The notes beneath the pieces are model-generated. The model was not told the origin of the DNA. It saw only the letters and a program-made list of their open reading frames with translations, and did no database searches. A stretch of DNA of 64,000 nucleotides from Ornithinimicrobium faecis. GTDB taxonomy: Bacteria > Actinomycetota > Actinomycetes > Actinomycetales > Dermatophilaceae. The stretch is from the NCBI RefSeq assembly GCF_023923225.1, contig NZ_CP099489.1, positions 620,001 to 684,000 on the forward strand, in the 5' to 3' direction. Numbering within the stretch: the first letter of the stretch is position 1; every line of letters starts with the position of its first letter. A program made the translations under genes and the position numbers. Below are positions 44,366 to 59,049 of this stretch, piece by piece.

Positions 44366-46495
44366 TCAGTCGCGGTGCCGACCGGGACCGGTGATCACGG
44401 GGTTGCCAGCGGTGATCACGGGGCTGTCGGAGGCGCCCGAGCTGTGTGCGGCAGCCGGTTCCACCCGCCGCGGCCACCAGAAGCGCTCGCCGAGGGTGAG
44501 CACGATGGCGGGGACCAGGACGGTGCGGACCAGCAGGGTGTCCAGCAGCACGCCGATGCAGATCACGGCGCCCACCTGGGCCAGCACGACCAGCGGCAGC
44601 ACGCCCAGCACGGCGAAGACTGCCGCGAGCAGGATGCCAGCGCTGGTGATGACGCCGCCGGTCGCGGACAGGGCACGCAGGACGCCCTCGCGGGTGCCGA
44701 CGGTGCGTGCTTCCTCCAGGGTGCGGGTGATGAGGAAGATGTTGTAGTCCACGCCGAGGGCCACCAGGAACAGGAAAGAGTAGAGCGGCACGATCGGGTC
44801 CAGGCCGCTGAAGCCCAGGACCGCGGTGAACAACCACCACGACACCCCGAGGGCGGCGCAGAAGCTGGCGATGACGCTGGCGACAAGGATCACGGGGGCC
44901 AGCACGGAGCGCAGGATGGCCGCCAGGGCCAGCAGCACCAGGGCCAGGATGAGCGGCAGGATCACGACCCGGTCCCGCGCGCTGGAGTCCAGTTGGTCGA
45001 TCGCCTCAGCGGCGGTGCCCCCGACGTAGGTCTCGGGGAGTTCACCCGTCACGGCGCGGACGTCGGTGAGAGCTGCCCGAGCCTCGTCGCCCTCGGAGCC
45101 CGTCGTGAGCACCAGGCTGAGTTGGGTCACCCCGTCGCCCTGGCCCCCGACGCTCACGGAGCCGACTGCGTCGAGGGTCTCCAGATCGGCGACGAGTTGC
45201 TCGACGGTCTGCTCGTCCTCGGTGGCAGTCACGACGGACGTGGGGTCCGAGGCGCCCTCGGGGAAGGACTGGGCCAGGCGCTCGGCCCCGGCGATCGCCT
45301 CGGGCTGGTCGGTGAACTGTTCCGAAGCAGGCAGGCCGAGCTGCAGCTGGGTCAGACCGAAGGCCATGGCGGCCAGGAGGGTCAGGGTGCCCCCAATGAA
45401 CGCCAGCGGGCGGGCCGCCACGCGGTCTCCCACTCGGCGCCAGGCCGACCGTCGCCCGGCCTGCCCCTCCTCGCCGACGTGTGGCACCTTCGGCCAGAAG
45501 ATCCAGCGCCCGAACAGCACGAGGGCCGCCGGCAGCATCAACAGCACGAAGCCCGCCGCCACGATGATGCCGACGGCGCTGGCCAGGCCGAGGCCGCGGG
45601 TGGTGGGCGTGACGGACAGCAGCAGGGTCAGCACGCCGACGACGACGGTGGCTCCGCTGGCCAGGATCGCCTCGGCAGCCCGGGGGAGGGCGGCCGCCAT
45701 GGCCTGGTGGCGGTCCTCGTGGTTGCGCAGCTCGTCGCGATAGCGGGAGATCAGCAGGAGCGCATAGTTGGTGCCGGCGCCGAAGACCAGCACGGACAGG
45801 ATCCCGATCGTCGACTCGTCCCACGGGACGCCGAACCCGGCGAGCACCTGGGTCGCCAGGATGGCTGCGGCCCGGTCCGCGAGGCCGACCACCGTGAGGG
45901 GGATCAGCCAGAGGACGGGGCTGCGATAGGTGATGAGCAGGAGGATGGCGACGACGGAGGCGGTGAAGGCCAACAGGGTCGTGTTGGCCCCGGCGAAGAC
46001 CTCGGTGAGATCCGCGCGGACTGCAGCCGGACCCGTGACCTGGACCTCGACACCGTCGGGCACGGACTCCCGCAGGTCGGTGCGCAGGTCCGCGACAGAG
46101 TCGGCGACCTCGGTCGCGGTCTGCGCGGGCACGTTGACGACGGAGATCGCCGCTGTGCCGTCCTCCGCAGGCTGCACGAAGGCGGGCGGCCCCTCGACCC
46201 CGGTGTCCAGGGCAGCGACGACCTGCTCAAGGTCCTCCAGGGCGCCGTCCACCTCCTCGGCACTGAAGACGATGATCGCGGTCGCCGTGTCCTCGGTGGG
46301 CAACTGCTCCTGCAGCTCCACCGCGCGCGTGGACTCATAGCCGACCGGCAGGGTGTCGGTCGGGTGCGGGGCGCGATCCGCCTCGCCCAACCCGACGATG
46401 ACACCTGCGCCGAGCAGCAGGCCGAGGAGCGCGACGATCCAGGCGGTGCGCCGGCCGGTGACAGTCTTGACGAGCCCGCCGGAGAGTGCGCGCAT
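44366..46495 (-). CDS. MMPL/RND-family exporter with CarH-like operator
   Basis: A 709-residue MMPL protein with two 6-helix clusters (about 165-350 and 495-690). GVPWDESTIGILSVLVFGAG... and FLVALGVDYNIFLITRTLEEA are the membrane Asp/Tyr motifs. In sequence it differs from the exporter at 16250, so the two are not recent duplicates. Start ATG at 46495 has AAGGAG upstream. A direct-repeat site almost identical to that of the light cluster (51423) lies 20-37 bp before the start, so the gene may belong to the same regulon. Export of a membrane lipid or antioxidant pigment is possible (inference). Confidence 0.9.
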   Translation of the reverse strand: MRALSGGLVKTVTGRRTAWIVALLGLLLGAGVIVGLGEADRAPHPTDTLPVGYESTRAVELQEQLPTEDTATAIIVFSAEEVDGALEDLEQVVAALDTGVEGPPAFVQPAEDGTAAISVVNVPAQTATEVADSVADLRTDLRESVPDGVEVQVTGPAAVRADLTEVFAGANTTLLAFTASVVAILLLITYRSPVLWLIPLTVVGLADRAAAILATQVLAGFGVPWDESTIGILSVLVFGAGTNYALLLISRYRDELRNHEDRHQAMAAALPRAAEAILASGATVVVGVLTLLLSVTPTTRGLGLASAVGIIVAAGFVLLMLPAALVLFGRWIFWPKVPHVGEEGQAGRRSAWRRVGDRVAARPLAFIGGTLTLLAAMAFGLTQLQLGLPASEQFTDQPEAIAGAERLAQSFPEGASDPTSVVTATEDEQTVEQLVADLETLDAVGSVSVGGQGDGVTQLSLVLTTGSEGDEARAALTDVRAVTGELPETYVGGTAAEAIDQLDSSARDRVVILPLILALVLLALAAILRSVLAPVILVASVIASFCAALGVSWWLFTAVLGFSGLDPIVPLYSFLFLVALGVDYNIFLITRTLEEARTVGTREGVLRALSATGGVITSAGILLAAVFAVLGVLPLVVLAQVGAVICIGVLLDTLLVRTVLVPAIVLTLGERFWWPRRVEPAAAHSSGASDSPVITAGNPVITGPGRHRD

Positions 46496-46514: not shown

Positions 46515-46532
46515 TGACTAATGTTTGTCTAA
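46515..46532 (-). promoter_or_regulatory. Candidate CarH-type operator in front of MMPL
   Basis: Minus strand TTAGACAAACATTAGTCA, two heptamers TTAGACA/TTAGTCA spaced 11 bp, overlapping a TAAGAT-like -10. It shares TAGACAAACATTAG with the site at 51423. Confidence 0.6.
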
Positions 46533-46617
46533 TCTTACGCGAGGTCCCGCAGACACGCGAAACTTACGGTCATCACTGTGCTCGCCCAAGGGTGTTCGGA
46601 GCGGCTTGTGGGCGTGC

Positions 46618-46830
46618 CTACTTCTCGACCCGGAAGCCCAGCTTGATGCCGACCTGCCAGTCGGCGACCTGCCCGCCCTCACCCAGGTGTCCGCGGATCT
46701 GCGTCACCTCAAACCAGTCGAGGTTGCGGACACTCTCCTGAGCGGAGGCGAGGGCGTTGTTGACCGCGCCCTCCACACCGTCGGGCGAGCTGCCGACCAA
46801 CTCGGAGATGGCATACACGTGATTGGCCAT
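46618..46830 (-). CDS. Dodecin
   Basis: A 70-residue dodecin. The family pattern is clear: [35 protein letters not shown] and [20 protein letters not shown], with the flavin-stacking Trp in LDWF. Dodecins form hollow dodecamers that store or buffer flavin (and in some species CoA). ATG at 46830 has GGAGG seven bases ahead. It lies between the MMPL exporter and a methyltransferase; the link to the nearby light cluster is only suggestive. Confidence 0.93.
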
Positions 46831-46911
46831 GGGGTGCCTCCTGGCGTCGCGCCGGACGCCGGTCGCCCGGCCTGTCCCCAACGTAGTGCGGATGCCGCGC
46901 CAGCGACAGGC

Positions 46912-47517
46912 TCAGTCCGGGCGCAGGACAGCGACGAGGAAGTCGGAGTCGGTGGTGAAGGGCCGCAGGTCCCACGTGGACAGCAACACATCCGGCACCA
47001 GCCCGGCACTCTCGGCATCAGCGAGGAACTCATCGAATGGATAGCCGCGCCCGGCGCCATAGCCGATCACCACTCGCCCGTCGGCGGCGGTGTGCTGACG
47101 CAGTCGTCGCAACACCTCCTGGCGGGTGCTCGGGGCCAGAAAAGCGATCACGTTGCCAGCGCTGACGACCACGTCAAAAGGCTCGGGTATGCCGAGGGTC
47201 GGCAGATCGAGCAGCGCCAGGTCGTGCGTGAGCCAGGTGGGGCCGGGGTGGTCCTCCTGGGCGGCGGCGATCAGCACCGGGTCGACGTCGACCCCGACCA
47301 CCGTGTGGCCCGAGCGGTGCAGGTAGCCCCCGGTCCGTCCCGGGCCGCACCCAGCGTCCAGGACCCGGGAGTCACGGCCGATCATGGCGTCGATCATCCG
47401 CGCCTCGCCAGCCAGATCCATCCCCTCGGCCGCCAGCCGACGGAACCGATCCACATACTTGCTGGAGTGGTCCGGATCCTCGGCGACCTGACGCATCCAC
47501 CCGCTCTGCTCGACCAT
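46912..47517 (-). CDS. Class I SAM-dependent methyltransferase
   Basis: A 201-residue enzyme. SAM motif I is RVLDAGCGPGRTGGYL (about 51-66), followed by acidic GVDVDP (about 75-80), motif II (FDVVVSAGNV) and motif III (LRQHTAADGRVVIGYG). The fold is that of small-molecule methyltransferases (Methyltransf_25-like). The substrate cannot be told. ATG at 47517 starts MVEQSGWMRQVAED. The 364-bp gap to the next gene holds repeat copy C and tRNA-Lys. Confidence 0.9.
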   Translation of the reverse strand: MVEQSGWMRQVAEDPDHSSKYVDRFRRLAAEGMDLAGEARMIDAMIGRDSRVLDAGCGPGRTGGYLHRSGHTVVGVDVDPVLIAAAQEDHPGPTWLTHDLALLDLPTLGIPEPFDVVVSAGNVIAFLAPSTRQEVLRRLRQHTAADGRVVIGYGAGRGYPFDEFLADAESAGLVPDVLLSTWDLRPFTTDSDFLVAVLRPD

Positions 47518-47587
47518 GGTCACCAGGCTAGTTGCAGCGCTCAGGCTGCCCGCGGGTGGCGTCGCTCGCTCGACGGGCGGAGATGGT

Positions 47588-47645
47588 CCTGTGGAAGGCG
47601 TCGCATGCCGTGGTTGCCGCAGGACGGTTTCCGCCGGGCGGTGAC
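47588..47645. repeat. Dispersed palindromic repeat, copy C
   Basis: Contains GGTCCTG...GCATGCCGTGGTTGCCGCAG-GAC and TTTCCGCCGGGCGGTGACGG. Matches copy B in the core and copy A in the tail. Lies directly beside tRNA-Lys. Confidence 0.65.
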
Positions 47646-47663
47646 GGGCATGCTGACGGACGG

Positions 47664-47736
47664 TGGGCCCCGTGGGATTCGAACCCACAACCTACGGATT
47701 AAAAGTCCGGAGCTCTAACCGTTGAGCTAGAGGCCC
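47664..47736 (-). tRNA. tRNA-Lys (TTT)
   Basis: Cloverleaf on the minus strand. The acceptor GGGCCTC pairs with GGGGCCC, the anticodon loop CTTTTAA carries TTT, and the T-arm is GTGGGTTCGAATCCCAC. CCA is not encoded. Confidence 0.96.
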
Positions 47737-47882
47737 TGGCGGCCCACTAGGAGGGACGCTCGGCCGGTTAGTCTACGTGCGCGGGCGTCGGTTTCCGCAC
47801 GCGACGTCCTTTTCCGCGCGCGACGTCCTTGCAGGCACGATCGTGGCAGGGAAGGACGATCTTGGCCGAGCAGGCCCTGGTC

Positions 47883-49463
47883 TCAGCCGCAGTCGACCTG
47901 CTCGCCCGGACCGGCGTCGTCCTCGAGCCGGAGGCCGTGCGTGCCGGTGGACTCGATCAGCTCGCAGACCTGCTCCTCGTCGTGGCCGGCCCAGTAATAG
48001 ATCAGGAACTGGTTCCCGCGCGCGTGGCTGGGGTTCCCGAGGCTGTCGCACGAGGCGTCCGTGTTCAGATAGCCAGCGCCAGGGTGCGCATCCAGTGACT
48101 CCTGAACCTGGACATTCACTCCCTGCAGGTTCTCGAAGGTGTCGAGCACGACGATGGCGGCGCCGTCGCAGGCGGGATAGGAGATCGGTTCGGTGCGGTG
48201 CAGGTCCCAGGGTCGGAAGTCACCCTCCTGCGTCGGGTCGACGAGCGTCGTCACATCTTCGCTGGCCAGCACGGTGTCGCCCTGGCGCACCTCGAACAGT
48301 TCCGTGGAGACCTCATAGGTGATGCCGTCCTCGCCGTGGCCGGTCCACCCGGCGCCGTGCTCGGTTGCCGAGGTCCGGATCGCGAGGCCGTCGCTGAGAT
48401 TGACCCCGTGATAGTTCACAGCGTCGCCGTCGCGGCAGATGGTCGCTTCGTAGTTGACCGTCTGCACCTGGACAACGAAGTCGCCGTGCGACCGGCACCA
48501 GGCCTGGTCGAACTCGGTGGTGCCCTCGGCCGCTGGCTCTGGCGCCACGACGTCGCCGGGGCCGCCGTCCGGTGCCCCCGTGATGTTCGGGGCCAGGGTG
48601 GAGCCCGGGCTCGGTCGGTCCGCGGCCCCCGGGACGTCAGGTCCGGGAGTGTCTTCGCCAGCGGGACTGTCCTCACCGGTCGGTGCCGGGTTGCCGGCAT
48701 CATCCGTCGGAGTGGCCGCGCCCTCTGTCGGCCCCGTGGGGGTGGCGTCTGCCGGGTCGGTCGCGGTGGGGTCGGTGGGAGGCTCAGTGGCATCAACGAC
48801 CGCAGCCTGCACCGGCGTGGCGTCGGGGATGACCGGGTTGCTGTCCTGATTGGTCCACCACAGACCTCCGGCGAGCACCAGGAGGAAGACCGTTGCTGCC
48901 GCGACAGCTGGGGGCCAGGTGCTCGCGGGCGCCGGCTCCTGCTCGTGCTCGGCTGTGGGCGTCGCGGCGAGCGATGACGCGGAGGCGGGCGAGGGCGAGG
49001 CGCGGATCTGGCCCTCATCGAAGGCCGCCAGCAGGTCCTGCACGGTGAGTCTGCGCGCCGGATCCGGCTCGATCAGGTGCTGGACGAAGGGAGGCAGCCC
49101 GACATCGTCGGAGGCGGAGCGAGCGTGCGCATCGAGGCTGCGCAGCACCTGCCCGAGGGCGAACGCATCGGCTGCGGGTCCGGGCTGGCACTCCGGGGCC
49201 TGCGGCCAGTCAGGGGGACGCCGGACCGGCCGGGGCGCGAGCAACTGGGCATCGCGGACTCCACCGCGCCCGCCATCGCCGACCACAGCGGGCGCATCAG
49301 CCAGGTCGAGCACGACGGTGTGGGGCCCGACATCGCCGTGGTGACGGCCCTGACCGTGCTCGTCCGCGAGCTGTCCGGCGACGATCTCGGCGACGGCCAG
49401 GACGTCCGCCCGGCTCAGCTCGCGTCCGGACGTCAGCACGTCCTGGACCAGCAACTCGGTCAT
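47883..49463 (-). CDS. Membrane pseudokinase with extracytoplasmic domain
   Basis: A 526-residue single-pass protein. The N-terminus (about 1-140) resembles only the C-lobe of a Ser/Thr kinase: ADVLAVAEIVAGQLADEHGQ, then HGDVGPHTVVL (42-52), then kinase end motifs (DAFALGQVLRSL, LIEPDPARRLTVQDLLAAF). There is no Gly-rich loop or VAIK lysine, and the catalytic-loop Lys and Asn are replaced (Gly46, Thr49), so no phosphotransfer is expected. A membrane segment (about 189-206), a long Pro/Thr/Asp linker (about 210-330) and a Cys-containing outer domain with CRSHGDFVVQVQTVNYEATI follow. ATG at 49463 with GGAGGG. Confidence 0.7.
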   Translation of the reverse strand: MTELLVQDVLTSGRELSRADVLAVAEIVAGQLADEHGQGRHHGDVGPHTVVLDLADAPAVVGDGGRGGVRDAQLLAPRPVRRPPDWPQAPECQPGPAADAFALGQVLRSLDAHARSASDDVGLPPFVQHLIEPDPARRLTVQDLLAAFDEGQIRASPSPASASSLAATPTAEHEQEPAPASTWPPAVAAATVFLLVLAGGLWWTNQDSNPVIPDATPVQAAVVDATEPPTDPTATDPADATPTGPTEGAATPTDDAGNPAPTGEDSPAGEDTPGPDVPGAADRPSPGSTLAPNITGAPDGGPGDVVAPEPAAEGTTEFDQAWCRSHGDFVVQVQTVNYEATICRDGDAVNYHGVNLSDGLAIRTSATEHGAGWTGHGEDGITYEVSTELFEVRQGDTVLASEDVTTLVDPTQEGDFRPWDLHRTEPISYPACDGAAIVVLDTFENLQGVNVQVQESLDAHPGAGYLNTDASCDSLGNPSHARGNQFLIYYWAGHDEEQVCELIESTGTHGLRLEDDAGPGEQVDCG

Positions 49464-49580
49464 GTCACCCTCCTGCCCGGAGCGAGCCCACGCGCTCCCG
49501 GGCACCGACTCTACGGGGCCGGCCCCTCGGCATACCGGATCTGGGCCCACGCCAGCGAGCTGTGTGGGCCGCCGCGCACC

Positions 49581-50834
49581 TCAGCCCTTGTGCGGCAGAT
49601 GCACATCCACCCAGACCAGGCGGTGGTCGCTGGAGGGGAACGGATAGGTGCCGGTCAGCCGCGACAGCGGGTCGGCAGAGACCGGCCAGAAGACCCCGGA
49701 GTCGCGGATCCGCAGGCTCTTGCTGGGCAGCACATAGTCCACCCGGATGTTGCCCGGCGGCTCGGCGAAGTCGGCCGTGTCGAGCGCCGGGTCGCCCAGA
49801 TGCTCAAGGTTGATGCCACCCTGCAACTCGCTGGCCTCGACGGCACCCTCGCTGGTCGGAGCGTTGGAGGTATTGATGCGCGGGTGCTCGAGCAACTGGT
49901 TGATCGCGCCGTTGACGGAGTCACCGTCCAGCGGGTCGGCGTTCTGGTCGCCGGCGATCACGAAGCGCGAGCCCGGAGCGAGGCCGCCGCCCGTGCCTGC
50001 GTCGTCATAGATGTAGGAGGACGCCGGCTTCGGCCCGACATAGTCCGCCCAGAACCGGATCTCGTCGTGGTTGCGCTTGCCGTTGCGGTCCTCCGGGCCG
50101 TCGAAGGTGGGCGGCGTCGGGTGGCTCACCAGGAAGTGCACGGTCCGGTTGCGCTCCACCTGGATCGGCACGTCCCAGTGCGACTTGCTCGACAGCCGCA
50201 GGATCGCCTGCTCGTCCTCGTCATAGAAGTCGGTCGGCATCAGGTTGCCGGGCATGTCCTGCCACCGGAAGTTCTGGAAGGTGCGCACGGCGTCGGTGTC
50301 GATCGGGAACTTGGAGAAGACGACCATGCCGTATTGCCCCGGGAACTCACCGAACCCGAAGGCGTCATCACCACCGCCGACCACGCCGTCATTGTTGAGG
50401 TCATGACCCGACGGGATGCCGGTGTTGGACGGTGCCACGAAGTAGTAGGGGTAGTCGACCGGGCTCGCGCCGTTCTGCCCGACCGCCAGGTAGTTGTCAC
50501 GGAACAGCTCGGCCGCCGCCCCGTCCGCGACATAGTCGAACTCGTTGACCAGCAGGACATCTGGGTTGTTGCGCTGGATGATCTCGGCGATCACCTGGGC
50601 CTGCTCGTTGTCCGGCGTGGACAGGTCGGTCAGCAGCTGGCCCTCGGCGCCGCGGTTGAGCGAGGCGTTGAAGGTCGAGAAGCGCACGTCCATGTCGGGT
50701 CTTCCCGCGCGATCGGCCGCCGTCACGGCGGGGTCGGCCGGGGCAGCGGAGGCGGGCAGGAAGGCCACGCCGGAGACCAGTGTGGCAGTCGCCAGGGCGG
50801 CAACGGTGATCCTCTTCAGGGACGCTTGAGTCAT
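49581..50834 (-). CDS. Secreted endonuclease/exonuclease/phosphatase-family protein
   Basis: A 417-residue exported protein (signal peptide 1-30, ending PASAAP). EEP-fold motifs: MDVRFSTFNASLNRG (about 48-62), NNPDVLLVNEFDYV (metal-binding Glu), HFLVSHPTPPTFDG, RFVIAGDQNADPLDGDS (Asp-Gln/Asn) and the closing YPFPSSDHRLVWVDV (Asp-His). A nuclease, phosphodiesterase or inositol-phosphatase role is possible. The pattern of large EEP proteins of soil actinobacteria suggests phosphate scavenging. It also has a dockerin-like DLNNDGVVGGGDD stretch (about 145-157). Confidence 0.9.
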   Translation of the reverse strand: MTQASLKRITVAALATATLVSGVAFLPASAAPADPAVTAADRAGRPDMDVRFSTFNASLNRGAEGQLLTDLSTPDNEQAQVIAEIIQRNNPDVLLVNEFDYVADGAAAELFRDNYLAVGQNGASPVDYPYYFVAPSNTGIPSGHDLNNDGVVGGGDDAFGFGEFPGQYGMVVFSKFPIDTDAVRTFQNFRWQDMPGNLMPTDFYDEDEQAILRLSSKSHWDVPIQVERNRTVHFLVSHPTPPTFDGPEDRNGKRNHDEIRFWADYVGPKPASSYIYDDAGTGGGLAPGSRFVIAGDQNADPLDGDSVNGAINQLLEHPRINTSNAPTSEGAVEASELQGGINLEHLGDPALDTADFAEPPGNIRVDYVLPSKSLRIRDSGVFWPVSADPLSRLTGTYPFPSSDHRLVWVDVHLPHKG

Positions 50835-50945
50835 CCCCCCAATCTAGAAGCGGGTTGTATGCCGAGGCGCGCGTTGGCGTGAACACGCGGTGAAGCCTTG
50901 GTCAGGATCGGCCCAGCAACTGGTTGGCCCAGCGGCTTGTGGCTC

Positions 50946-51377
50946 TCACAGTCGGGCGAGCGCCTCGCGCATGTCGCGTGCGGCCCGATTCCCGAGTTGC
51001 CACAGGGCGATCGCCAGGATCGGTGCCAGGAGTCGGACGCCACGGTGGAAGTCGAACTGCGCCCGATAGACCACCGTGGAGCCGCCGCGCGGGTCGGGGG
51101 TCACGGTGATGGTGTCGTGTGCCACCAGGGAGGAGTTCTCCCCGCGCAACTCGATGTGCCCGGACGGGTCGAGGGCGACGACGGTGTAGGTGACCTCGAC
51201 CGTGCGGCCCAGGAACCTGCTGGTGTTGCGATAGCGCGTGCCCACGCCGCCGTCCCCGCTCTCACGCACGGTGCGGACAGTGCCAGGGTCCCATTCGGTG
51301 CTGGTCTCGAAGTCGCTGAGGTAGGCGAAGACGCGGGCGGCCTCCCGGTCAGTTTCAATCCGTCGCTCGATCTGCAT
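50946..51377 (-). CDS. SRPBCC (polyketide-cyclase-like) protein
   Basis: A 143-residue START-fold protein. It opens MQIERRIETDREAARVFAYL, with SDFETSTEWDPGTV, and the last helix (RGVRLLAPILAIALWQLGNRA) covers the pocket. Such proteins bind hydrophobic ligands. The AGGAG at good spacing fixes the ATG at 51377. It is divergent from the FAD oxidoreductase operon and shares the direct-repeat site at 51423-51440, so it probably belongs to the light regulon. Confidence 0.88.
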   Translation of the reverse strand: MQIERRIETDREAARVFAYLSDFETSTEWDPGTVRTVRESGDGGVGTRYRNTSRFLGRTVEVTYTVVALDPSGHIELRGENSSLVAHDTITVTPDPRGGSTVVYRAQFDFHRGVRLLAPILAIALWQLGNRAARDMREALARL

Positions 51378-51422
51378 CGAAGCACTCCTGTCAGTTGCGC
51401 GGATGATGTCGTGCAACCTAGT

Positions 51423-51440
51423 CTAGACAAACATTAGACA
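51423..51440. promoter_or_regulatory. Candidate CarH-type operator between divergent genes
   Basis: CTAGACAAACATTAGACA, two heptamers (C/T)TAGACA exactly 11 bp apart, with a third weaker match (TGACAG) further on. It sits 46 bp from the SRPBCC start and 40 bp from the FAD-oxidoreductase start. CarH binds 11-bp direct repeats over -35 elements. Confidence 0.65.
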
Positions 51441-51479
51441 AAGGCTGACAGGGCAGAAGGTCAGCGGAACGGAGGCTCG

Positions 51480-52769
51480 ATGGACAGGCTGACGCCACAG
51501 GTGGCAGTCATTGGTGCCGGGATCTCGGGTCTGACGGCCGCCTATGCGTTGCGCGCGACGCACGACGTGACCCTGTTTGAGGCGGACGACCGGCTCGGCG
51601 GGCACGCTCACACCCACGACGTGCCGACCGCGGGCGGGGGCGTGGTCCCGATCGACAGCGGCTTCATCGTCCACAACGAGCGCACCTATCCCACACTGCT
51701 GCGACTGTTCCGTGAGCTCGACGTGCCGACCCGCCAGACCGAGATGTCCATGAGCATCACGTGCGACGGCTGCGGACTGTCCTACGCAGGCGGGCGGGGC
51801 CTCCCCGGAATCGTCGGCGGGTTGGGACTCCGGGGGCGCGACGACGCCCGGCACGCCGCGGCCCTGCTGCCGCTGCTGCGTCAGGTCCCGCAGTTCTATC
51901 GCGCGGCCTCGGCGCTGCTCGAGACGCCCGCGTCCACCTGGGACCCGACGCTGCGGGAGTTCCTGGGGCGACACCTGTTCAGCGACCACTTCGTGCGCCA
52001 CTTCGTGGTGCCCCTGGTCAGCTGCGTGTGGTCGGCCGGTGATCTGGACTCAGCGGCCTATCCGGCTCGGCACCTGTTCCGGTTCCTGGACCACCACGGG
52101 ATGCTGCGGGTCAGCGGCTCGCCGACCTGGAAGACGGTCGTGGGTGGTTCCCGCGCGTATGTCGACCGGCTGGCCGCCCGGTTGCCCGACGTGCGGCGGG
52201 GATGCGCCGTGCGCGCAGTGACGCGTCACGAGGATGGTGTCGAGGTGACCACCGAGGACGGGAGGCGCACGGCATACGACCAGGTCGTGGTCGCCACCCA
52301 TGCCGACCAGGCACTGGACCTGCTCGCCGATGCCGATCCCGTCGAGAAGGAGGCGCTCGCGGCCTACTGCTACTCCGTCAACCACACCCTGCTCCACACC
52401 GACACCTCCGTGCTGCCCGCGCCCCGGGCCCGCGCCTCCTGGAACTACCGGATGAGCGGGTGCCGACAGGACGCTCCGGGCGCGCGGGTGAGCTACTGGA
52501 TGAACCGTCTCCACGGCCTCGAGCCGTCGGTCGCGGACCACGTCGTGACCCTCAACGCCGGGACAGACATCGACCCCGACCGGGTCGTGGCCGAGATGGC
52601 CTATGCCCACCCGGTCTTCACGCGTGAGTCGGTCGCGGCCGCGGCAGTGCTGCGCGAGGCCGGGGGCACGCATCTGGCCTTCGCCGGTGCACACCTGGGC
52701 TGGGGCTTCCACGAGGACGGTGCGCGCTCGGGGCTCGCTGCCGCGACCCGGCTGGGTGCGCGGTGGTGA
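51480..52769 (+). CDS. FAD/NAD(P)-binding oxidoreductase (amine-oxidase-like)
   Basis: A 429-residue flavoprotein. The Rossmann motif VAVIGAGISGLTAAYAL (8-24) is followed by LFEADDRLGGHAHTH. The C-terminal end (FAGAHLGWGFHEDGARSGLAAA) resembles flavin amine oxidases. This family (predicted NAD/FAD-binding protein, often next to DUF1365 and a CFA-synthase gene) occurs in light- and singlet-oxygen-response clusters. First gene of a four-gene operon. ATG at 51480 with GGAGG. Confidence 0.92.
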   Translation: MDRLTPQVAVIGAGISGLTAAYALRATHDVTLFEADDRLGGHAHTHDVPTAGGGVVPIDSGFIVHNERTYPTLLRLFRELDVPTRQTEMSMSITCDGCGLSYAGGRGLPGIVGGLGLRGRDDARHAAALLPLLRQVPQFYRAASALLETPASTWDPTLREFLGRHLFSDHFVRHFVVPLVSCVWSAGDLDSAAYPARHLFRFLDHHGMLRVSGSPTWKTVVGGSRAYVDRLAARLPDVRRGCAVRAVTRHEDGVEVTTEDGRRTAYDQVVVATHADQALDLLADADPVEKEALAAYCYSVNHTLLHTDTSVLPAPRARASWNYRMSGCRQDAPGARVSYWMNRLHGLEPSVADHVVTLNAGTDIDPDRVVAEMAYAHPVFTRESVAAAAVLREAGGTHLAFAGAHLGWGFHEDGARSGLAAATRLGARW

Positions 52770-53557
52770 CCGCGCCGGCCAGGAGCGCGGGAGCCGTCCG
52801 CGCCGGAGCCCGCCAGCGGGTGACCCCGCCGGCCCTCCCGGCGCTCGTCGTCGGACGGGTGAGTCATCGCCGGCGCACGCCCCTGCACCATGCCTTTGAG
52901 CACCGGCACTATTCCTGGCTGGTCGATCTCGATGACCCGCCGGAGCTGCCGAGACTGCTCCGCCCGCTGGCGGTCTTCCGGCCCGAGGACCATCTCGACG
53001 GAGGCCGCCGCGGCGGTGGCATCCGCGGCGACCTGGCGCGCTTCCTGGGCGCGCGGGACATCGTGGTCGAGCCCGGTGACCGGCTCCTGATGCTGGCCCA
53101 CCCGCGCAGCCTGGGGCACGGCTTCAACCCGTTGACCGTCCACTGGTGCCTCACGGCCGACGACGAGGTGCGCGCCGTCGTGCTCGAGGTGCACAACACC
53201 TACGGCCAGCGGCACGCCTATCTGCTGCGCCCCGATGCCTCCGGTCGCGCAGGCATCGACAAGGACTTCTATGTCTCCCCGTTCAACGACACCGACGGGT
53301 CGTATGCCGTGCGAGTGCTCCTGGGTGAGCACGTCGCCGTCTGTGTGCGGCTGGAGCGCGGGGGTCAGACGGTCCTGACCGCCACCCTCGACGGCCGGGC
53401 CCGCCCGGCCACCGTTTCCACCGTGCTCAGGACGACGCTGAGCCTGCCCCTGATGACCCACCGGGTCTCCGCGCTGATCCGGGCACACGGCCTCTGGCTG
53501 TGGCTGCGCCGGCTGCCAGTTCGATCTCGACCCGACCATGAGGACCTGACCCGATGA
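52766..53557 (+). CDS. DUF1365 protein
   Basis: 263 residues. Family motifs: VGRVSHRRRTPLHHAFEHRHYSWLVDLDD (about 31-59), RDIVVEPGDRLLMLAHPRSLGHGFNPLTVHWC, EVHNTYGQRHAYLL and KDFYVSPFNDTDGSY. Function unknown, though always linked to an FAD oxidoreductase and a CFA-like methyltransferase. A GTGA overlap of four bases with the upstream stop decides the start. Confidence 0.92.
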   Translation: MTAPARSAGAVRAGARQRVTPPALPALVVGRVSHRRRTPLHHAFEHRHYSWLVDLDDPPELPRLLRPLAVFRPEDHLDGGRRGGGIRGDLARFLGARDIVVEPGDRLLMLAHPRSLGHGFNPLTVHWCLTADDEVRAVVLEVHNTYGQRHAYLLRPDASGRAGIDKDFYVSPFNDTDGSYAVRVLLGEHVAVCVRLERGGQTVLTATLDGRARPATVSTVLRTTLSLPLMTHRVSALIRAHGLWLWLRRLPVRSRPDHEDLTR

Positions 53558-54825
53558 CGACAACCGACCTGCCACGACGACTGAATCTGCCAGGGGTCGA
53601 GGACCCGGCGTGCCTGCGGCGCAAGCGCGGTGGGGTCTGCCCTCGAGCACGGGTGGCAAGGGTCGTCCTGTCCGTGGCCGCCCGACGGGCCGGTGTGGAG
53701 TTGCTGCTGCCGGACGGCACGCCGCTGGGAGGCGGGCCAGCGACTCCCGGCAACCCGGTCATCGAGATCCTGCGCCAGCGAGACCTGCTCGAACGCGTCG
53801 CCCACGACCCGAAGGTGGGGGTGGGGGAGGCCTACATGGCCGGGGACTGGAGGCCGGCGTCGGGCACCGATCTGGCCGCCGTGATGCTCCCGTTCGCCGA
53901 GCGGATCGAGTCACTCCTGCCGATGTGGCTGCAGCGGCTCCGGTTTGCCGTCGACCGGCGCCCGCCGCGCACCGACAACAGCCCTGCCGGTGCCCGGCAG
54001 CACATTGAAGCGCACTACGACCTCTCGAACGACATGTTCGCCACGTTCCTCGACCCGTCCATGAGCTACAGCTCGGCGCGCTTCGAACGCGGACGGCCGC
54101 TGGCGGAGCAGGACCTCCACGAGGCTCAGCTGCGCAAGATCGACACAGTCCTTGACGCGGCACAGGTCGGTCACGGCACGCAGGTGTTGGAGATCGGCAC
54201 GGGTTGGGGGGCGCTGGCAGTCCGTGCCGCTGAGCGAGGGGCACACGTCGTGACGGTGACGCTGTCGAGAGAGCAGGCGGATCTGGCGCGGGAGCGCGTG
54301 ACCCGCGCTGGTGTGGCCGATCGGGTGAGCATCCGCCTCCAGGACTATCGGGAGGTCACCGGCCGCTATGACGCGGTGGTCTCCGTCGAGATGGTCGAGG
54401 CGGTCGGCGAGGACTACTGGCCTGCCTACTTCCGGGCCATCGAGGATCGGCTCGCTCCCGACGGGGTCGCGGCAGTGCAGTCGATCCTGATGAGCCACCG
54501 GCGGCTGCTCGCTAGTCGACGCTCCTACGGCTGGATCAACAAGCACGTCTTCCCTGGTGGCATGATCCCCTCTATGGAGGCCATCGAGGCGGTCACCGAG
54601 GCGCACACCAGCCTGCGCGTCCAGACTGTCGAGCGCTTCGGTGCTGACTATGCCGAGACCCTCCGCCGCTGGCGGGAGCGCTTCCTGTCCGAGTGGAGGT
54701 CCATTGAGGGCGGGGGTTTCGACGCGGTGTTCCGGCGACGCTGGGAGTTCTATCTGGCCTTCTGCGAGGCCGGTTTCGCCGGCGGGGCGATCGACGTCGG
54801 CCTGATCCGGTTGGAGCGGTCGTGA
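53554..54825 (+). CDS. Cyclopropane-fatty-acid-synthase-like methyltransferase
   Basis: A 423-residue SAM enzyme of the CFA/mycolate cyclopropane family. Motifs: HYDLSNDMFATFLDPSMSYS (about 152-171), SAM motif VLEIGTGWGALAVRAAERG (about 211-229), EMVEAVGEDYWPAYF and IFPGG-like HVFPGGMIPS. It modifies unsaturated acyl chains in membrane lipids, in this setting probably as a light/oxidative-stress response. ATGA overlap with DUF1365, GTGA with the next gene. Confidence 0.93.
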   Translation: MTTTDLPRRLNLPGVEDPACLRRKRGGVCPRARVARVVLSVAARRAGVELLLPDGTPLGGGPATPGNPVIEILRQRDLLERVAHDPKVGVGEAYMAGDWRPASGTDLAAVMLPFAERIESLLPMWLQRLRFAVDRRPPRTDNSPAGARQHIEAHYDLSNDMFATFLDPSMSYSSARFERGRPLAEQDLHEAQLRKIDTVLDAAQVGHGTQVLEIGTGWGALAVRAAERGAHVVTVTLSREQADLARERVTRAGVADRVSIRLQDYREVTGRYDAVVSVEMVEAVGEDYWPAYFRAIEDRLAPDGVAAVQSILMSHRRLLASRRSYGWINKHVFPGGMIPSMEAIEAVTEAHTSLRVQTVERFGADYAETLRRWRERFLSEWRSIEGGGFDAVFRRRWEFYLAFCEAGFAGGAIDVGLIRLERS

Positions 54826-56300
54826 GGGCCCTGGTGACCGGTGCCACCGGCTATGTCGGAGGTCTGCTCGTGCCCCGTCTCCTCGAGGCTGGTTGGCAGG
54901 TGCGCGTCCTGACACGTGACGCCTCGCGTCTCAACCCCGACTGGCGTGACCAGGTCCACGTCATCGAGGGTGACGCGACGTCAGCCGCCGACCTGGACAC
55001 GGCGCTCGCAGCGGATGACCGGGAACCACTCGACGTGGCCTACTACCTGCTGCACAGCATGGACGGGCGTGGAGACTTCGCAGACCGTGACCGACAGTTG
55101 GCCGAGGGCTTTGGCGCGGCGACCCTGCGCGCTGGCGTCCGGCGTCTCGTCTATCTCTCGGGACTGCACCCCGACGGAGAACTGTCCGCCCACTTGGCTT
55201 CTCGCGTCGAGGTGGGTCGAATCCTCCTGGACAGTGGAGTGCCGACCGCTGTGCTGCAGGCGGCCACCATCATCGGCGACGGATCGGTCTCTTTCGCCAT
55301 GTTGCGCCACCTCACCACGCGCCTGCCCGCGATGGTGGCGCCAAAGTGGCTGCGCAACCTGATCCAACCGATCGCGGTCGAGGACGTCCTGCACTACCTC
55401 GTCGCCGCAGCAGGGCTGCCGGACCAGGTGAACCGCACGTTCGACATCGGAGGACCCGACGTCCTCAGCTATGCACAGATGATGCAGATCTTCGCCGAGG
55501 AAACCGGCCAGCGGCGACGGCTCATCGTCACCGTCCCCGTGCTGACTCCGCACCTGGCGAGCCACTGGGTCGGGCTGGTCACGCCCGTCGACGCCGGGGT
55601 CGCCAAGCCCCTCGTCGGCTCGCTTGTGCACGAGGTTGTCTGCCAAGAGGATGACCTCGACCACCGGGTGGGACCGCCGCCGGGTGGCCAGACGCCCTAT
55701 CGTGCGGCGGTGCGCAAGGCGATGGCGGGGGTTGCTCCAGACACCGCGCTGCGACGGACGGCGCAGGTCGTGACGGCGGTGACACTGGCAGCGGTGGCGG
55801 GAAGCGCGGCCACGGACCCCGGCAGCCAGTGGTATCGCTCGTTGGCCAAGCCGGCCTGGCAACCACCGTCGCTCGCCTTTCCGGTGGTCTGGACGGGTCT
55901 GTATGCCGATCTGGCCGCAGTCGCCACAGCCACCCTGATCGATCTGGATCAGCAGGTCGATCTGGAGCAGCAGGACTGGTCAGCGGCGACCGACGCGCAG
56001 TCGGGGCAGGAGGGTCCCCGTGGCGGACCGGCCCGTCCGGACGCCGCTAGGGCGACTGGTTTCGAGCGTGCCCTGTTGATCAACCTGGCCTTGAACGCGG
56101 CCTGGAGCGCCAGTTTCTTCCGCGCCAGACGGCCCGCACTGGCGACCATGCACAGTGCACTGCTCACGGTCAGCGCCGTTGACCTGGCTCGCCGAGCGGG
56201 CACCGTCAGCACCCGCCGGGGGTGGCAGTTGGCGCCGTATCCCGCCTGGTGCGGATTCGCGACGGCCCTGTCAGTGTCCCTGGCTCGCCGGAACCGGTGA
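54822..56300 (+). CDS. SDR-TspO/MBR fusion protein
   Basis: A 492-residue fusion. Part 1 (about 1-300): atypical SDR/NmrA-like with TGATGYVGG (6-14), LAYYLLHSM-like VAYYLLHSMDG and RLVYLSGLHPDGE. Part 2 (about 305-492): a TspO/MBR domain with about five membrane helices, having SLAKPAWQPPSLAFPVVWTG, LNAAWSASFF and PYPAWCGFATALS, which match the conserved WxPPxxxFxxVWxxLY and PYxxWxxFA blocks. TspO binds porphyrins and is tied to tetrapyrrole and light responses. The fusion suggests an enzyme tethered to a tetrapyrrole sensor. GTG at 54822 is fixed by the overlap. Confidence 0.9.
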   Translation: MRALVTGATGYVGGLLVPRLLEAGWQVRVLTRDASRLNPDWRDQVHVIEGDATSAADLDTALAADDREPLDVAYYLLHSMDGRGDFADRDRQLAEGFGAATLRAGVRRLVYLSGLHPDGELSAHLASRVEVGRILLDSGVPTAVLQAATIIGDGSVSFAMLRHLTTRLPAMVAPKWLRNLIQPIAVEDVLHYLVAAAGLPDQVNRTFDIGGPDVLSYAQMMQIFAEETGQRRRLIVTVPVLTPHLASHWVGLVTPVDAGVAKPLVGSLVHEVVCQEDDLDHRVGPPPGGQTPYRAAVRKAMAGVAPDTALRRTAQVVTAVTLAAVAGSAATDPGSQWYRSLAKPAWQPPSLAFPVVWTGLYADLAAVATATLIDLDQQVDLEQQDWSAATDAQSGQEGPRGGPARPDAARATGFERALLINLALNAAWSASFFRARRPALATMHSALLTVSAVDLARRAGTVSTRRGWQLAPYPAWCGFATALSVSLARRNR

Positions 56301-56329
56301 GCGAGGTCCGGGGGAGCGGTGCGCGGCTC

Positions 56330-57277
56330 TCACGGGCTGTGCTCGCCCCGCGGGTTCACGAGCCGGGCCCCCTCGACCGGGTCACCGTCCAGGAGGACGG
56401 CCCCCAGCTGCTCGGCCACCTCCTGGGTGGCGCCCGCGCCGCCGACCACGAAGTGGGCCGCTCGCAGCGCCCGCTGCGCGCTCCGGTCCAGTCGGCCCAG
56501 CTCGTCGGCGGCAGCGGCCAGGGGGTCGGTCTGCACGCTCGCGAGCACGACAAGATCAGGACGGAGCGACTGCACGGCCGAGGTCAGGGTGTCCACGGGG
56601 GTGTCAGCCCCGAGATAGCGCACGCGCCACCCGGCGCGGCCCAGGACGACACCGAAGGCCAGCAGACCCAGCTCGTGCTGCTCCCCCGGCGGGCAGGCCA
56701 GCACGGCGAGGGGGCCGGAACCGCCGTCCCAGGCCAGCGTCAGGGTGGCCAGACGGCTGCGGACCAGGTTGCTGGCGAAGTGCTCCTGGGCCACTGTGAA
56801 CGTGCCGTCGGCCCAGCGCACGCCGGTCTCGTGAAGCACAGGCAGGACCACACCCCGCAGGGCCTCTTCGACGCCCAGCTGCTCGAGGGTGACGTCCAGA
56901 ACGGCGTGCGCCGCAGAGCCGTCGAACTGGTCGATCGCCTCCAGCAGGTGATCGCGCAGTCGGCCCCTTTCCACTGCGGTCGCAGGTGCGTCGCGGGCGG
57001 TCGCGGTGCCCTCCCCCGACCGGGCGCTGTCATGCGGCCCCGACTGTCGGGACGCAGCGAGCGCGGCGGCGGCCGCCTGTGCAGTGGACACGCCCGTGGC
57101 GCGCAGCCGCACGGTCTCGCGCACCCGCCACTCGTCGGAGGGCCCGTAGAGTCGGTAGCCACCGGTGGAGCGCCTCGGCGTGAGCAAACCGTAACGCCGC
57201 TCCCACACGCGCAGGACGTGCACACTGACGCCGGTGCGCGTCGCCAGCTCCCCGATGCGCATCGTCGCCGCGGCCAT
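56330..57277 (-). CDS. carH: CarH/LitR-type B12-binding MerR photoreceptor
   Basis: A 315-residue regulator. A MerR helix-turn-helix (MRIGELATRTGVSVHVLRVW, 6-25; RRYGLLTPRRSTGGYRLY) is followed by a linker and a cobalamin-binding module. Trp155-x9-Glu165-His166 is the Wx9EH signature and EQHELG (199-204) the ExHxxG, with His201 as lower cobalt ligand. The Trp-His and His-His spacings equal those of Thermus CarH. CarH represses in the dark with adenosylcobalamin and releases DNA on light. The residue after Trp155 is Ala, where Thermus has the bis-His ligand. Start 57277 (GGGTGA); 57283 or 57262 possible. Confidence 0.92.
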   Translation of the reverse strand: MAAATMRIGELATRTGVSVHVLRVWERRYGLLTPRRSTGGYRLYGPSDEWRVRETVRLRATGVSTAQAAAAALAASRQSGPHDSARSGEGTATARDAPATAVERGRLRDHLLEAIDQFDGSAAHAVLDVTLEQLGVEEALRGVVLPVLHETGVRWADGTFTVAQEHFASNLVRSRLATLTLAWDGGSGPLAVLACPPGEQHELGLLAFGVVLGRAGWRVRYLGADTPVDTLTSAVQSLRPDLVVLASVQTDPLAAAADELGRLDRSAQRALRAAHFVVGGAGATQEVAEQLGAVLLDGDPVEGARLVNPRGEHSP

Positions 57278-57324
57278 GGTCACCCGGGCAGCCTACAACG
57301 GTGAACAAAGCATGGACAGGACAC

Positions 57325-57340
57325 GGGACAAACATATGAC
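57325..57340. promoter_or_regulatory. Weak CarH-like site beside carH
   Basis: GGGACAAACATATGAC, sharing the 9-mer GACAAACAT with the other two sites. It is preceded by GAACA and GGACA elements at about 11-12-bp steps (57303, 57314). Lies between carH and the CPBP gene; could autoregulate. Similarity is partial. Confidence 0.35.
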
Positions 57341-58046
57341 CGAGATGCGCCGCTTCCTGCTGGCCGCGCTCGTCCGTCCGGTGCCCCGGGACCACCGCGA
57401 GCCCGATCGCGACTTCCGCCGGCGCCGGATCGTGTGTGCAGCCACGCTCGTGGTCGGGGCCGTGGTGCTCGCTCTCGGACTGCGCACCCCGCCCGGCGAC
57501 TCCCGCTTCATCATGCTCACCGCCATGCTTGCCGCCGTCTGGGTGGTGGGGGCCCTGCTCGCAGGACCGGTGCACCTGGGGCGCGGGTGGTCGCGCCGGG
57601 GTGCGCTGGTCCGTCCGGTCGTGCAATCGCTGACGCTGGGACTGCTCGCCGTGGGAGTGTTCTGCGCCGGAGCGGTGCTCGTGGCGCAGGTGCCACTCCT
57701 GCGCGACGCGGTCAACGAGGTGCTCGACCACGCTCGCTATGCCCCGCTCCCGCTCGTGGCCCTGATCACCGTGGTCAACGGGGTGGCCGAGGAAGTCTTC
57801 TTCCGCGGTGCGCTCTATGCCGCGGTCGGTTCCGGGCGGCAGGTGCTGGTGACGACCGGACTCTACGTCCTGGTCACTGCCGCCGCAGGCAACCTCATGC
57901 TCGTCGTCGCAGCAGGCCTGCTCGGTCTGCTCGTCGGCGCCCAGCGCCGGGTCACCGGCGGGGTGCTTGGGCCCGCCCTCACCCACGTGACGTGGTCCCT
58001 GTCCATGCTGTTCGTGCTCCCGCCACTGCTCGTGGCGCTCACCTGA
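57336..58046 (+). CDS. CPBP-family (CAAX-like) intramembrane protease
   Basis: About 236 residues with seven or so membrane segments. The CPBP motif NGVAEEVFFRGALYAAVG (about 146-163) carries the EExxxR pair, and LTHVTWSLSML (about 211-221) the second His. Function may be prenyl-type protease or immunity. It follows carH divergently. Starts at 57312 and 57345 are also possible; none has a ribosome site, and 57312 would lie in the operator-like region. Ten bases before the SDR gene, so co-transcribed. Confidence 0.88.
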   Translation: MTEMRRFLLAALVRPVPRDHREPDRDFRRRRIVCAATLVVGAVVLALGLRTPPGDSRFIMLTAMLAAVWVVGALLAGPVHLGRGWSRRGALVRPVVQSLTLGLLAVGVFCAGAVLVAQVPLLRDAVNEVLDHARYAPLPLVALITVVNGVAEEVFFRGALYAAVGSGRQVLVTTGLYVLVTAAAGNLMLVVAAGLLGLLVGAQRRVTGGVLGPALTHVTWSLSMLFVLPPLLVALT

Positions 58047-58056
58047 GGAGACAAAG

Positions 58057-59049
58057 ATGCCCCTACTCACCCAGCGCCTCGCGCGCGCCGCCGACACTGC
58101 GATGGACCGGCTGGTCGTCCTCGGCTACACGCGGATCGGTCATGCTGTGCGACGCCGACTGCCTCACTGGCCGGCTGACCCCGCGCCGGACGCCCTGGCC
58201 GGTCGGCACGTGGCCGTCACCGGCGCAACCTCCGGGCTGGGTGAGGCCACGGCCCGCGGGGCCTCGGACCTCGGCGCGCACGTCCACCTCGTGGTCCGCG
58301 ACACCGACAAGGGGGAGCGGGTGGCAGCAGCCCTGCCGGCCCCGGGGAGGGTCACGGTCTGGCACTGCGACGGGGGAGACCTCGACAGCGTCCGGGCGTT
58401 CACCAACGCGTTGCTCGCGCAGGTGCCCCGGCTGGACGGACTCGTGCACAACGCCGGGGCGCTGCCCGCGACGCGCACCGAGTCACCGCAGGGGCACGAG
58501 CTGACCATGGCGCTGCACGTCCTGGGTCCAGTGGCGATGACCGAGGCGCTGCGGCCGGTGCTCTCGGCGGGGGCACCCGTCATCTTCGTCACCTCTGGCG
58601 GCATGTATGCGCAGCGGCTGCGCGCCGATGACCCCGACTACCACCAGCAGCCCTACTCGGGCGCCACGGCCTATGCACGCAGCAAGCGCGCCCAGGTGGA
58701 GTTGCTGCCCCTGCTGCAGCGACGCTGGGTCGCAGAGGGCGAAAGCGGGCCCTCGGTGCACGCCGCCCACCCGGGGTGGGCCGACTCCCCGGGACTCACC
58801 TCGTCGCTGCCCCGCTTCGCCCGGGTCACCGCCCCCATCCTGCGCTCTCCCGAGGCGGGGGCCGACACGGTGCTCTGGCTGCTGGCACGGCCCGGTCAGC
58901 CCGGGGGTCAGCTGTGGCACGACCGGCGTCCGCGGCCGACGCACGTGGTGAGTAGGACGCGTGTCGAGCGCGCTGAGGCGGCGCGGCTGTGGCGCTGGGT
59001 CGTGGGCGCCACCGGGCTGGAGGACACGGACTCGGAGACCGACTCCTGA
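58057..59049 (+). CDS. Short-chain dehydrogenase/reductase
   Basis: A 330-residue classical-type SDR. VTGATSGLGEATARGA (about 54-69) binds NAD(P); LVHNAGALPA, VIFVTSGGMY and YARSKRA (Tyr-x3-Lys) are the active-site motifs. It resembles retinol-dehydrogenase/WW-domain oxidoreductase-like SDRs. Substrate unknown. Second gene of the CPBP-SDR pair at the end of the light cluster. GAGGAGA precedes the ATG at 58057. Confidence 0.9.
   Translation: MPLLTQRLARAADTAMDRLVVLGYTRIGHAVRRRLPHWPADPAPDALAGRHVAVTGATSGLGEATARGASDLGAHVHLVVRDTDKGERVAAALPAPGRVTVWHCDGGDLDSVRAFTNALLAQVPRLDGLVHNAGALPATRTESPQGHELTMALHVLGPVAMTEALRPVLSAGAPVIFVTSGGMYAQRLRADDPDYHQQPYSGATAYARSKRAQVELLPLLQRRWVAEGESGPSVHAAHPGWADSPGLTSSLPRFARVTAPILRSPEAGADTVLWLLARPGQPGGQLWHDRRPRPTHVVSRTRVERAEAARLWRWVVGATGLEDTDSETDS

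Follow-up and report, generated by a model that had tools for sequence, protein, structure and literature searches.

CarH, an adenosylcobalamin (AdoCbl) photoreceptor, has so far been described mostly as a switch for carotenoids. The CarH proteins of Thermus thermophilus, Bacillus megaterium and Myxococcales join a MerR domain carrying RxWERRY to two B12-binding domains with a light-response signature (PMC9304148, PMC11796333), and the promoters concerned carry tandem repeats of the form nnnnTnnACAn with an 11-bp period (PMC9304148). Light also reaches lipid genes elsewhere: among the LitR-linked, light-induced genes of Pseudomonas mendocina are an FAD oxidoreductase, a short-chain dehydrogenase (SDR) and ufaM (PMC9758184). 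In Rhodobacter, UfaM, UfaD (NAD/FAD-binding) and UfaO (DUF1365) belong to the synthesis of methylated furan fatty acids, which are raised on loss of chrR (PMC7380195). Here we describe a window of 64,000 nucleotides from Ornithinimicrobium faecis (NZ_CP099489.1, positions 620,001 to 684,000; coordinates below are those of the window unless stated) that encodes a CarH-type regulator at 56330-57283 and carries paired TnnACA repeats before the regulator gene, before a candidate lipid-synthesis operon and its divergent SRPBCC gene, and before the transporter gene mmpL. These sites are probably operators of the CarH-type repressor, which would block transcription in the dark and release it in the light, switching on lipid and envelope genes. 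This is the candidate regulon proposed in the initial annotation of the window, and it is supported by the rarity of the motif, its 11-bp period, its recurrence at carH and at the lipid operon, and its tracking of CarH across genomes.

The two sites recognized in that annotation are the 18-mers TTAGACAAACATTAGTCA, at 46532-46515 on the minus strand on the mmpL side, and CTAGACAAACATTAGACA, at 51423-51440 on the plus strand on the side of the FAD operon. Both match the published CarH repeat with an 11-bp direct-repeat period, and in 100 shuffles of the window the largest count of these 18-mers was 0. Sites were scored by the four contact letters of each TnnACA repeat, with two repeats per site (maximum 4/4 + 4/4). 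The operator shared by the FAD operon and the SRPBCC gene (51424-51440, plus; TAGACA-N5-TAGACA) is complete at 4/4 + 4/4, and the mmpL operator (46515-46531, minus; TAGACA-N5-TAGTCA) scores 4/4 + 3/4. The positions and the period had thus been given correctly; the second mmpL repeat needs a correction, being imperfect (TAGTCA). The sites had also been placed just before start codons, which is where they lie: 19 bp from the mmpL ATG, 39 bp from the FAD-oxidoreductase ATG (51480) and 45 bp from the SRPBCC ATG (51377, a start chosen by inspection and preceded by AGGAG; the mechanical open reading frame (ORF) starts at a TTG at 51416). At the position of the FAD-operon operator, the two nearest relatives carry TAGACAAACATTAGACA (L121) and TAGACAAACAGTAGACA (L122). 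Within the 64-kb window just two stretches match TnnACA-N5-TnnACA in all eight letters, one at the FAD-operon promoter and one at the carH promoter. The target promoters bear tandem 11-bp nnnnTnnACAn operators of two good repeats each.

The carH operator, TGAACAAAGCATGGACA (57302-57318, plus; TGAACA-N5-TGGACA), consists of two perfect repeats 11 bp apart (4/4 + 4/4) and is likewise 4/4 + 4/4 in the relatives L159 and L162, whose CarH proteins are 63-68% identical to that of the window. It had been overlooked in favor of a third, weaker copy nearby. That copy is present (57325-57341, plus; GGGACA-N5-ATGACC, with the 9-mer GACAAACAT at 57327-57335) but poor, scoring 3/4 + 2/4. Upstream of carH, L159 and L162 carry TGAACAAGC..TGGACA together with a second pair, TAGACA-N5-TAGACA. 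The second pair of L162 (TAGACAAACCCTAGACA) follows the first by 23 bp, an offset equal to that of the third copy from 57302; L122 has TAGACACACCGTGGACG at a 23-bp offset too, and the offset in L159 is 35 bp. Because the 23-bp offset recurs in L162 and L122, the third copy looks like a decayed second carH operator.

The period recurs well beyond this window. We compared TnnACA pairs at spacings of 6 to 20 bp in the 5′ regions of carH homologs, drawn from the family and four outside loci, and of the FAD gene. Of 64 carH loci, six were dropped for want of a usable 5′ end, and removal of near-identical regions reduced the remaining 58 to 49 and the 27 FAD-gene regions to 21. Of the 49 non-redundant carH regions, 16 contain a pair at 11 bp, with 0-2 at the other spacings, and 300 shuffles gave a mean of 0.08 and a maximum of 1. 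For the FAD gene the count is 6 of 21, with 0 at other spacings (300 shuffles: mean 0.05, maximum 1). In several of the other regions a perfect repeat is paired with one that departs from the pattern at a single letter, such as TTGACAAACCTTTGACG, and these go uncounted in this strict test.

The motif is rare in its own genome, a single contig of 4,620,106 bases. Allowing up to three mismatches, the 17-mer core of the 18-mer has three matches, of which the two window sites have 0 mismatches; with up to two mismatches, the window 18-mers are the sole matches, which is the outcome of the genome search that the initial annotation had proposed. The three-mismatch match, at 894707 of the genome, was dropped because it lies inside predicted ORFs. 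A looser pattern, TNNACANNNNNTNNACA, was rejected as a basis for calling the regulon by itself, since it has 28 matches and its reversed control 20; its matches outside the window were checked for location inside predicted ORFs, rather than gene by gene. Overlapping loose-pattern matches at 83672-83699 of the genome contain TTATCCACA, which we take to be a DnaA box, and were set aside. At 3185863-3185987 of the genome (L055 and L056), outside predicted ORFs, two TGAACA-type repeat pairs stand on opposite strands about 100 bp apart and are a possible further regulon member.

Among the 31 genomes of the genus, TAGACAAACATTAGWCA with up to two mismatches occurs 20 times in 13 genomes, and its reversed control 0 times in all 31. 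The extended motif TNGACAAACNNTNNNCA has 36 occurrences in 21 of these genomes (reversed control 2), and TNGACAAACNNTNGACA has 48, spread over 37 of the 149 family genomes (reversed control 2). CarH matches were found in 95 of the 149 family genomes (E 1e-20) and in 25 of the 31 genus genomes (E 1e-12). The sites follow them: 33 of 95 family genomes with CarH have sites versus 4 of 54 without (Fisher p 1.4e-4), and in the genus the counts are 20 of 25 versus 1 of 6 (Fisher p 0.007), both tests being uncorrected for relatedness. For 12 of the 48 family sites, a CarH match is less than 1 kb away. The genus exception with a site and no CarH match, G163, is an assembly of 570 contigs with one of its sites near a contig end, and no site was found in the four genus genomes that have the DUF1365 gene and no CarH match (G047, G104, G139 and G164).

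The genes behind the motif were inspected for 35 of the 36 genus sites, one site being without a locus, and for 28 of the 48 family sites. Targets in the genus include the FAD operon, carH, mmpL, the CAAX gene and DUF4397 proteins, as well as a photolyase (L245; PF03441, E 2.2e-81), polyprenyl synthetases (L154, L160 and L164) and a DUF2177 protein (L130); several sites have no clear target. Eight of the 28 family sites stand at SRPBCC and/or FAD-oxidoreductase genes (L255, L256, L259 and L261-L265; five of these loci were family-scanned and the others judged by the look of the sequence), and one at a photolyase (L270). Photolyases and polyprenyl synthetases, the latter leading towards carotenoids, are usual targets of light control. 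The initial annotation had named occurrence before unrelated genes at background frequency as evidence that would count against a regulon. Such a pattern was not seen: the sites are few and keep the 11-bp period of CarH, in several genera they are found again at carH and at this lipid operon, their presence goes statistically with that of CarH, and in relatives they stand before photolyase and polyprenyl-synthetase genes. The DUF4397 proteins have a signal-like start directly behind the repeats at L162:8293-9093 and L245:604-1407 (both family-scanned), and DUF4397-like proteins occupy the same position, by look, at L157:10751-11602 and L240:1598-2404. A palindromic form, TGGACAAACGTTGTCCA, found in three genus genomes away from carH (L250, L252 and G157:C19:27405), may be the site of another regulator.

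The regulator gene (56330-57283, minus) encodes 317 aa, with a MerR helix-turn-helix domain bearing RVWERRY at residues 25-31, followed by B12-binding_2 and B12-binding domains (PF13411, PF02607 and PF02310). The protein matches Thermus CarH (5c8d) at E 7.1e-32 and is the one full-length CarH-like protein of its genome, where five other matches are partial. The light-response signature of CarH comprises GxxW, EH, GxxH and GxxxP (PMC11796333), and all four elements are present as GVRW (154), EH (167), GEQH (200) and GADTP (225). In these respects the window does encode the full CarH-type repressor that had been claimed for it, and an adenosyltransferase gene (PF01923) is present in the genome. 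The genus also has CarH-like proteins of another group (L154, L155, L157, L158, L164, L123-L125, L127-L129 and L131), 31-38% identical to that of the window, whose DNA-binding region starts differently (VKQV/IKRA) and whose G-x-x-H lacks the Glu before it; several of these genomes nonetheless carry the same DNA repeats close by.

By inspection, the operators overlap their promoters and are placed in ways that suit repression at all three. A −10-like box, TAAGAT (46532-46537, minus), directly precedes the first mmpL repeat, so that the repeats would cover the transcription start. At the FAD operon, a promoter-like TTGCGC, 18 bp and TAGTCT (51395-51424, plus) shares its last base with the operator. 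The carH promoter (minus) reads TGTCCA, 17 bp and TAGGCT (57290-57295), and its operator covers the −35-like TGTCCA and the spacer. In the dark, AdoCbl-bound oligomers of the CarH-type protein would occupy these tandem repeats and block transcription of carH, of the divergent SRPBCC and FAD-oxidoreductase-DUF1365-CFA-SDR/TspO genes, and of mmpL. Light would break the Co–C bond and the CarH-type protein would leave the DNA, after which the cell would alter its envelope, in part by making methyl-branched or furan-type fatty acids, and so protect the membrane from photo-oxidation.

At mmpL, the operator appears to have been acquired in one lineage. Counting the window's own gene, six orthologs reach at least 80% identity, and in each of them a TAAGRT box is followed immediately by TRGACAAANNNTNNNCA. 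Of the 30 mmpL loci, seven have alignments that start after residue 80, which leaves the upstream region unplaced; among the 24 loci outside the close group (58-67% identical, one 44%), the pair is found in 0 of the 17 with a placeable upstream region. At six of these 17, which were scanned, a MarR-family gene lies 48-130 bp away in divergent orientation. Beside the six close orthologs, no ORF is listed in the position of the MarR gene, except for a co-directional ORF 87 bp away in L171; the family scan of their neighbors covered those of the window itself (methyltransferase and dodecin). With close and distant groups defined by percent identity and orthology taken without a tree, this suggests that in one sublineage control of mmpL passed from a regulator of MarR type to one of CarH type.

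Comparison of genomes makes a strong case that the sites are CarH operators, and several observations weigh on the other side. The support is itself comparative; CarH binding, the light response with its dark/light switching, the direction of regulation and the lipid product are inferred. The searched motif was not found in 62 of the 95 CarH-positive family genomes or in 5 of the 25 in the genus, some of the counted CarH matches cover the B12 part only, and the Fisher tests leave the relatedness of genomes uncorrected. In both nearest relatives the carH operator has a broken first repeat (AAGACA in L121, GAGACA in L122), and no exact pair precedes the FAD gene in L123-L125 and L127-L129, which have the operon and a 33-35% identical CarH homolog. 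Operators in Thermus and Bacillus have three or four repeats, whereas those described here have two good ones each; for some myxobacteria, operators are reported in which weak repeats accompany one or two good ones (PMC9304148). The regulator's best NCBIfam match is the CarH equivalog NF052513 (E 4.2e-44), with a score of 150.9 bits where the cut-off is 400, and we therefore label it CarH-type rather than a strict equivalog. The residue after its signature Trp is Ala158, versus His132 in Thermus CarH, and His occupies this place in 1 of 53 CarH-like proteins compared (L201). In Thermus, His132 is the upper cobalt ligand of the light state, and the H132A variant is reported not to monomerise; His stands there in many, not all, CarH homologs (PMC11796333).

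This substitution favors a variant in which the sites bind the CarH-type protein and the signal is mainly AdoCbl level or redox rather than light, the light-state His ligand being absent. We regard that as unlikely, given that all four signature elements are in place, that photolyase genes stand under the same motif in relatives, and that CtMerR, with Arg at the His132 position, is still converted by green light from a tetramer into a monomer (PMC11796333). Because CtMerR works in light without it, a His after the signature Trp was not taken as defining. The repeats might instead belong to another regulator (TetR, MarR, or a MerR protein without B12), with CarH merely a neighbor: the binding of CarH to them is itself inferred, sites occur in 4 of the 54 family genomes that lack a CarH match, and a MarR-family gene stands divergently beside mmpL in six distant relatives. 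The 11-bp TnnACA period at carH itself and the statistical link of sites to CarH speak against this, as do the mmpL loci beside MarR genes, which lack the repeats. The MarR protein CrtR in particular was rejected as owner of the sites, since the motif published for it spans 15-19 bp around TTAA and differs from these repeats (PMC7432914); we judge ownership by another regulator improbable, and somewhat less likely than AdoCbl or redox sensing. That the repeats are core-promoter or chance sequence without operator function is very improbable. TnGACA does resemble a −35 box, and the loose pattern barely exceeds its control genome-wide (28 versus 20); set against this are the specific 11-bp period, the excess of the extended motif (36 versus 2 in the genus, 48 versus 2 in the family) and the position of the mmpL repeats downstream of a −10-like box.

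The genes under these probable CarH operators fit together as a lipid and envelope cluster. The operon begins with the FAD-dependent oxidoreductase (51480-52769, plus; PF01593 E 3.5e-30, PF13450), a UfaD-like candidate whose role is assigned by analogy (PMC7380195), and continues with the DUF1365 protein (52763-53557, plus; PF07103 E 4.6e-63), a UfaO-like candidate for which we found no solved structures. The third gene (53554-54825, plus; PF02353 E 7.1e-82) encodes a CMAS/Cfa-family S-adenosylmethionine (SAM) methyltransferase, a UfaM-like or Cfa-like candidate; among solved chains it is closest to Cfa (E. coli Cfa 6bqc, E 1.1e-47), and it scores below the cut-offs of the NCBIfam Cfa models. 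An SDR-TspO fusion protein follows (54822-56300, plus; PF03073 E 3.5e-28, NAD-binding PF13460). At the domain level, without comparison to the Rhodobacter sequences, the DUF1365 protein adjoins the FAD protein here and in relatives, and the operon resembles ufaD-ufaO-ufaM, with its third gene either UfaM or Cfa. The SRPBCC (Polyketide_cyc2) gene, divergent from the FAD gene, lies at 50946-51377 (minus; PF10604 E 6.7e-20, scanned as ORF 50946-51416). Its product also has a weak match to the NCBIfam Rv0910 toxin model (34.1 bits, cut-off 100), and its place in a lipid cluster speaks for a lipid-binding role rather than a toxin. Divergent from carH is a CAAX-type (Rce1-like) membrane protease (57336-58046, plus; PF02517 E 4e-10; start set by inspection, domain scan on the longer ORF 57234-58046), followed by a short-chain dehydrogenase (58057-59049, plus; PF00106 E 7.9e-20). 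The mmpL gene (44366-46495, minus) encodes an MMPL-family (RND) transporter of 709 aa (PF03176 E 9.7e-102). Directly upstream of it are a dodecin gene (46618-46830, minus; PF07311) and then a methyltransferase gene, and beyond the cluster lies a SpoIID protein with cell-wall-binding CWB2 repeats (59230-61659, plus) that is kept in L121 and L122. Gene order in both relatives equals that of the window.

A broader picture can be drawn in four parts, which taken together we hold tentatively, at somewhat under an even chance. In this family the CarH-type protein would chiefly switch a membrane-lipid photoprotection regulon, comprising furan or methyl-branched fatty acid synthesis, SRPBCC, TspO and the CAAX protease, with photolyase in relatives. 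In this genome the switch would work without carotenoid synthesis; phytoene synthase (PF00494), which catalyzes the first carotenoid step and is the one carotenoid gene searched, has 0 matches here and matched in 7 of 14 control genomes. It would use two-repeat operators and a light state unable to employ bis-His ligation, and in one sublineage the regulon would have captured mmpL, its promoter passing from a MarR-linked form to one with CarH repeats. If true, this would tie an AdoCbl photoreceptor to a candidate furan-fatty-acid operon and so provide a light input for these lipids in Gram-positive bacteria, and mmpL would be a promoter that changes regulators within one genus. A CarH-type protein without the bis-His residue offers material for testing the light-switch mechanism, and the two-repeat operator a compact part for green-light gene control. 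In the open-licence literature we found no report of this regulon, nor of CarH with furan fatty acids or with Ornithinimicrobium, and novelty is thus unproven.

The closest described systems each share part of this arrangement. In the class II LitR clusters of Pseudomonas, PmlR1 and PmlR2 of P. mendocina are, like the regulator here, of the LitR/CarH family and lie near light-induced genes; however, the class II LitR PmlR2 is driven by a LOV protein at T(G/A)TACA / TGTACA sites (PMC9758184), in contrast to the AdoCbl light signature and TnGACA repeats of the window. The ufaM, ufaD and ufaO genes of Rhodobacter sphaeroides offer the same set of FAD protein, DUF1365 protein and SAM methyltransferase (PMC7380195), but under ChrR, whereas here a CarH-type repressor would be in control, and Cfa is a possible identity for the methyltransferase. 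A presumed mmpL target is known from Corynebacterium and other actinobacteria, where mmpL is thus assigned to the regulon of the MarR repressor CrtR, tied to carotenoid genes and light (PMC7432914, PMC6739363); a divergent MarR gene is found at the six scanned distant relatives, whereas the six close mmpL orthologs carry TnnACA repeats. Against the known CarH systems themselves, the light-state His ligand is replaced by Ala and the target operon would be one for lipid synthesis. The regulator and operator are thus of a known kind, and what is new is the combination of targets and the variant light-state residue.

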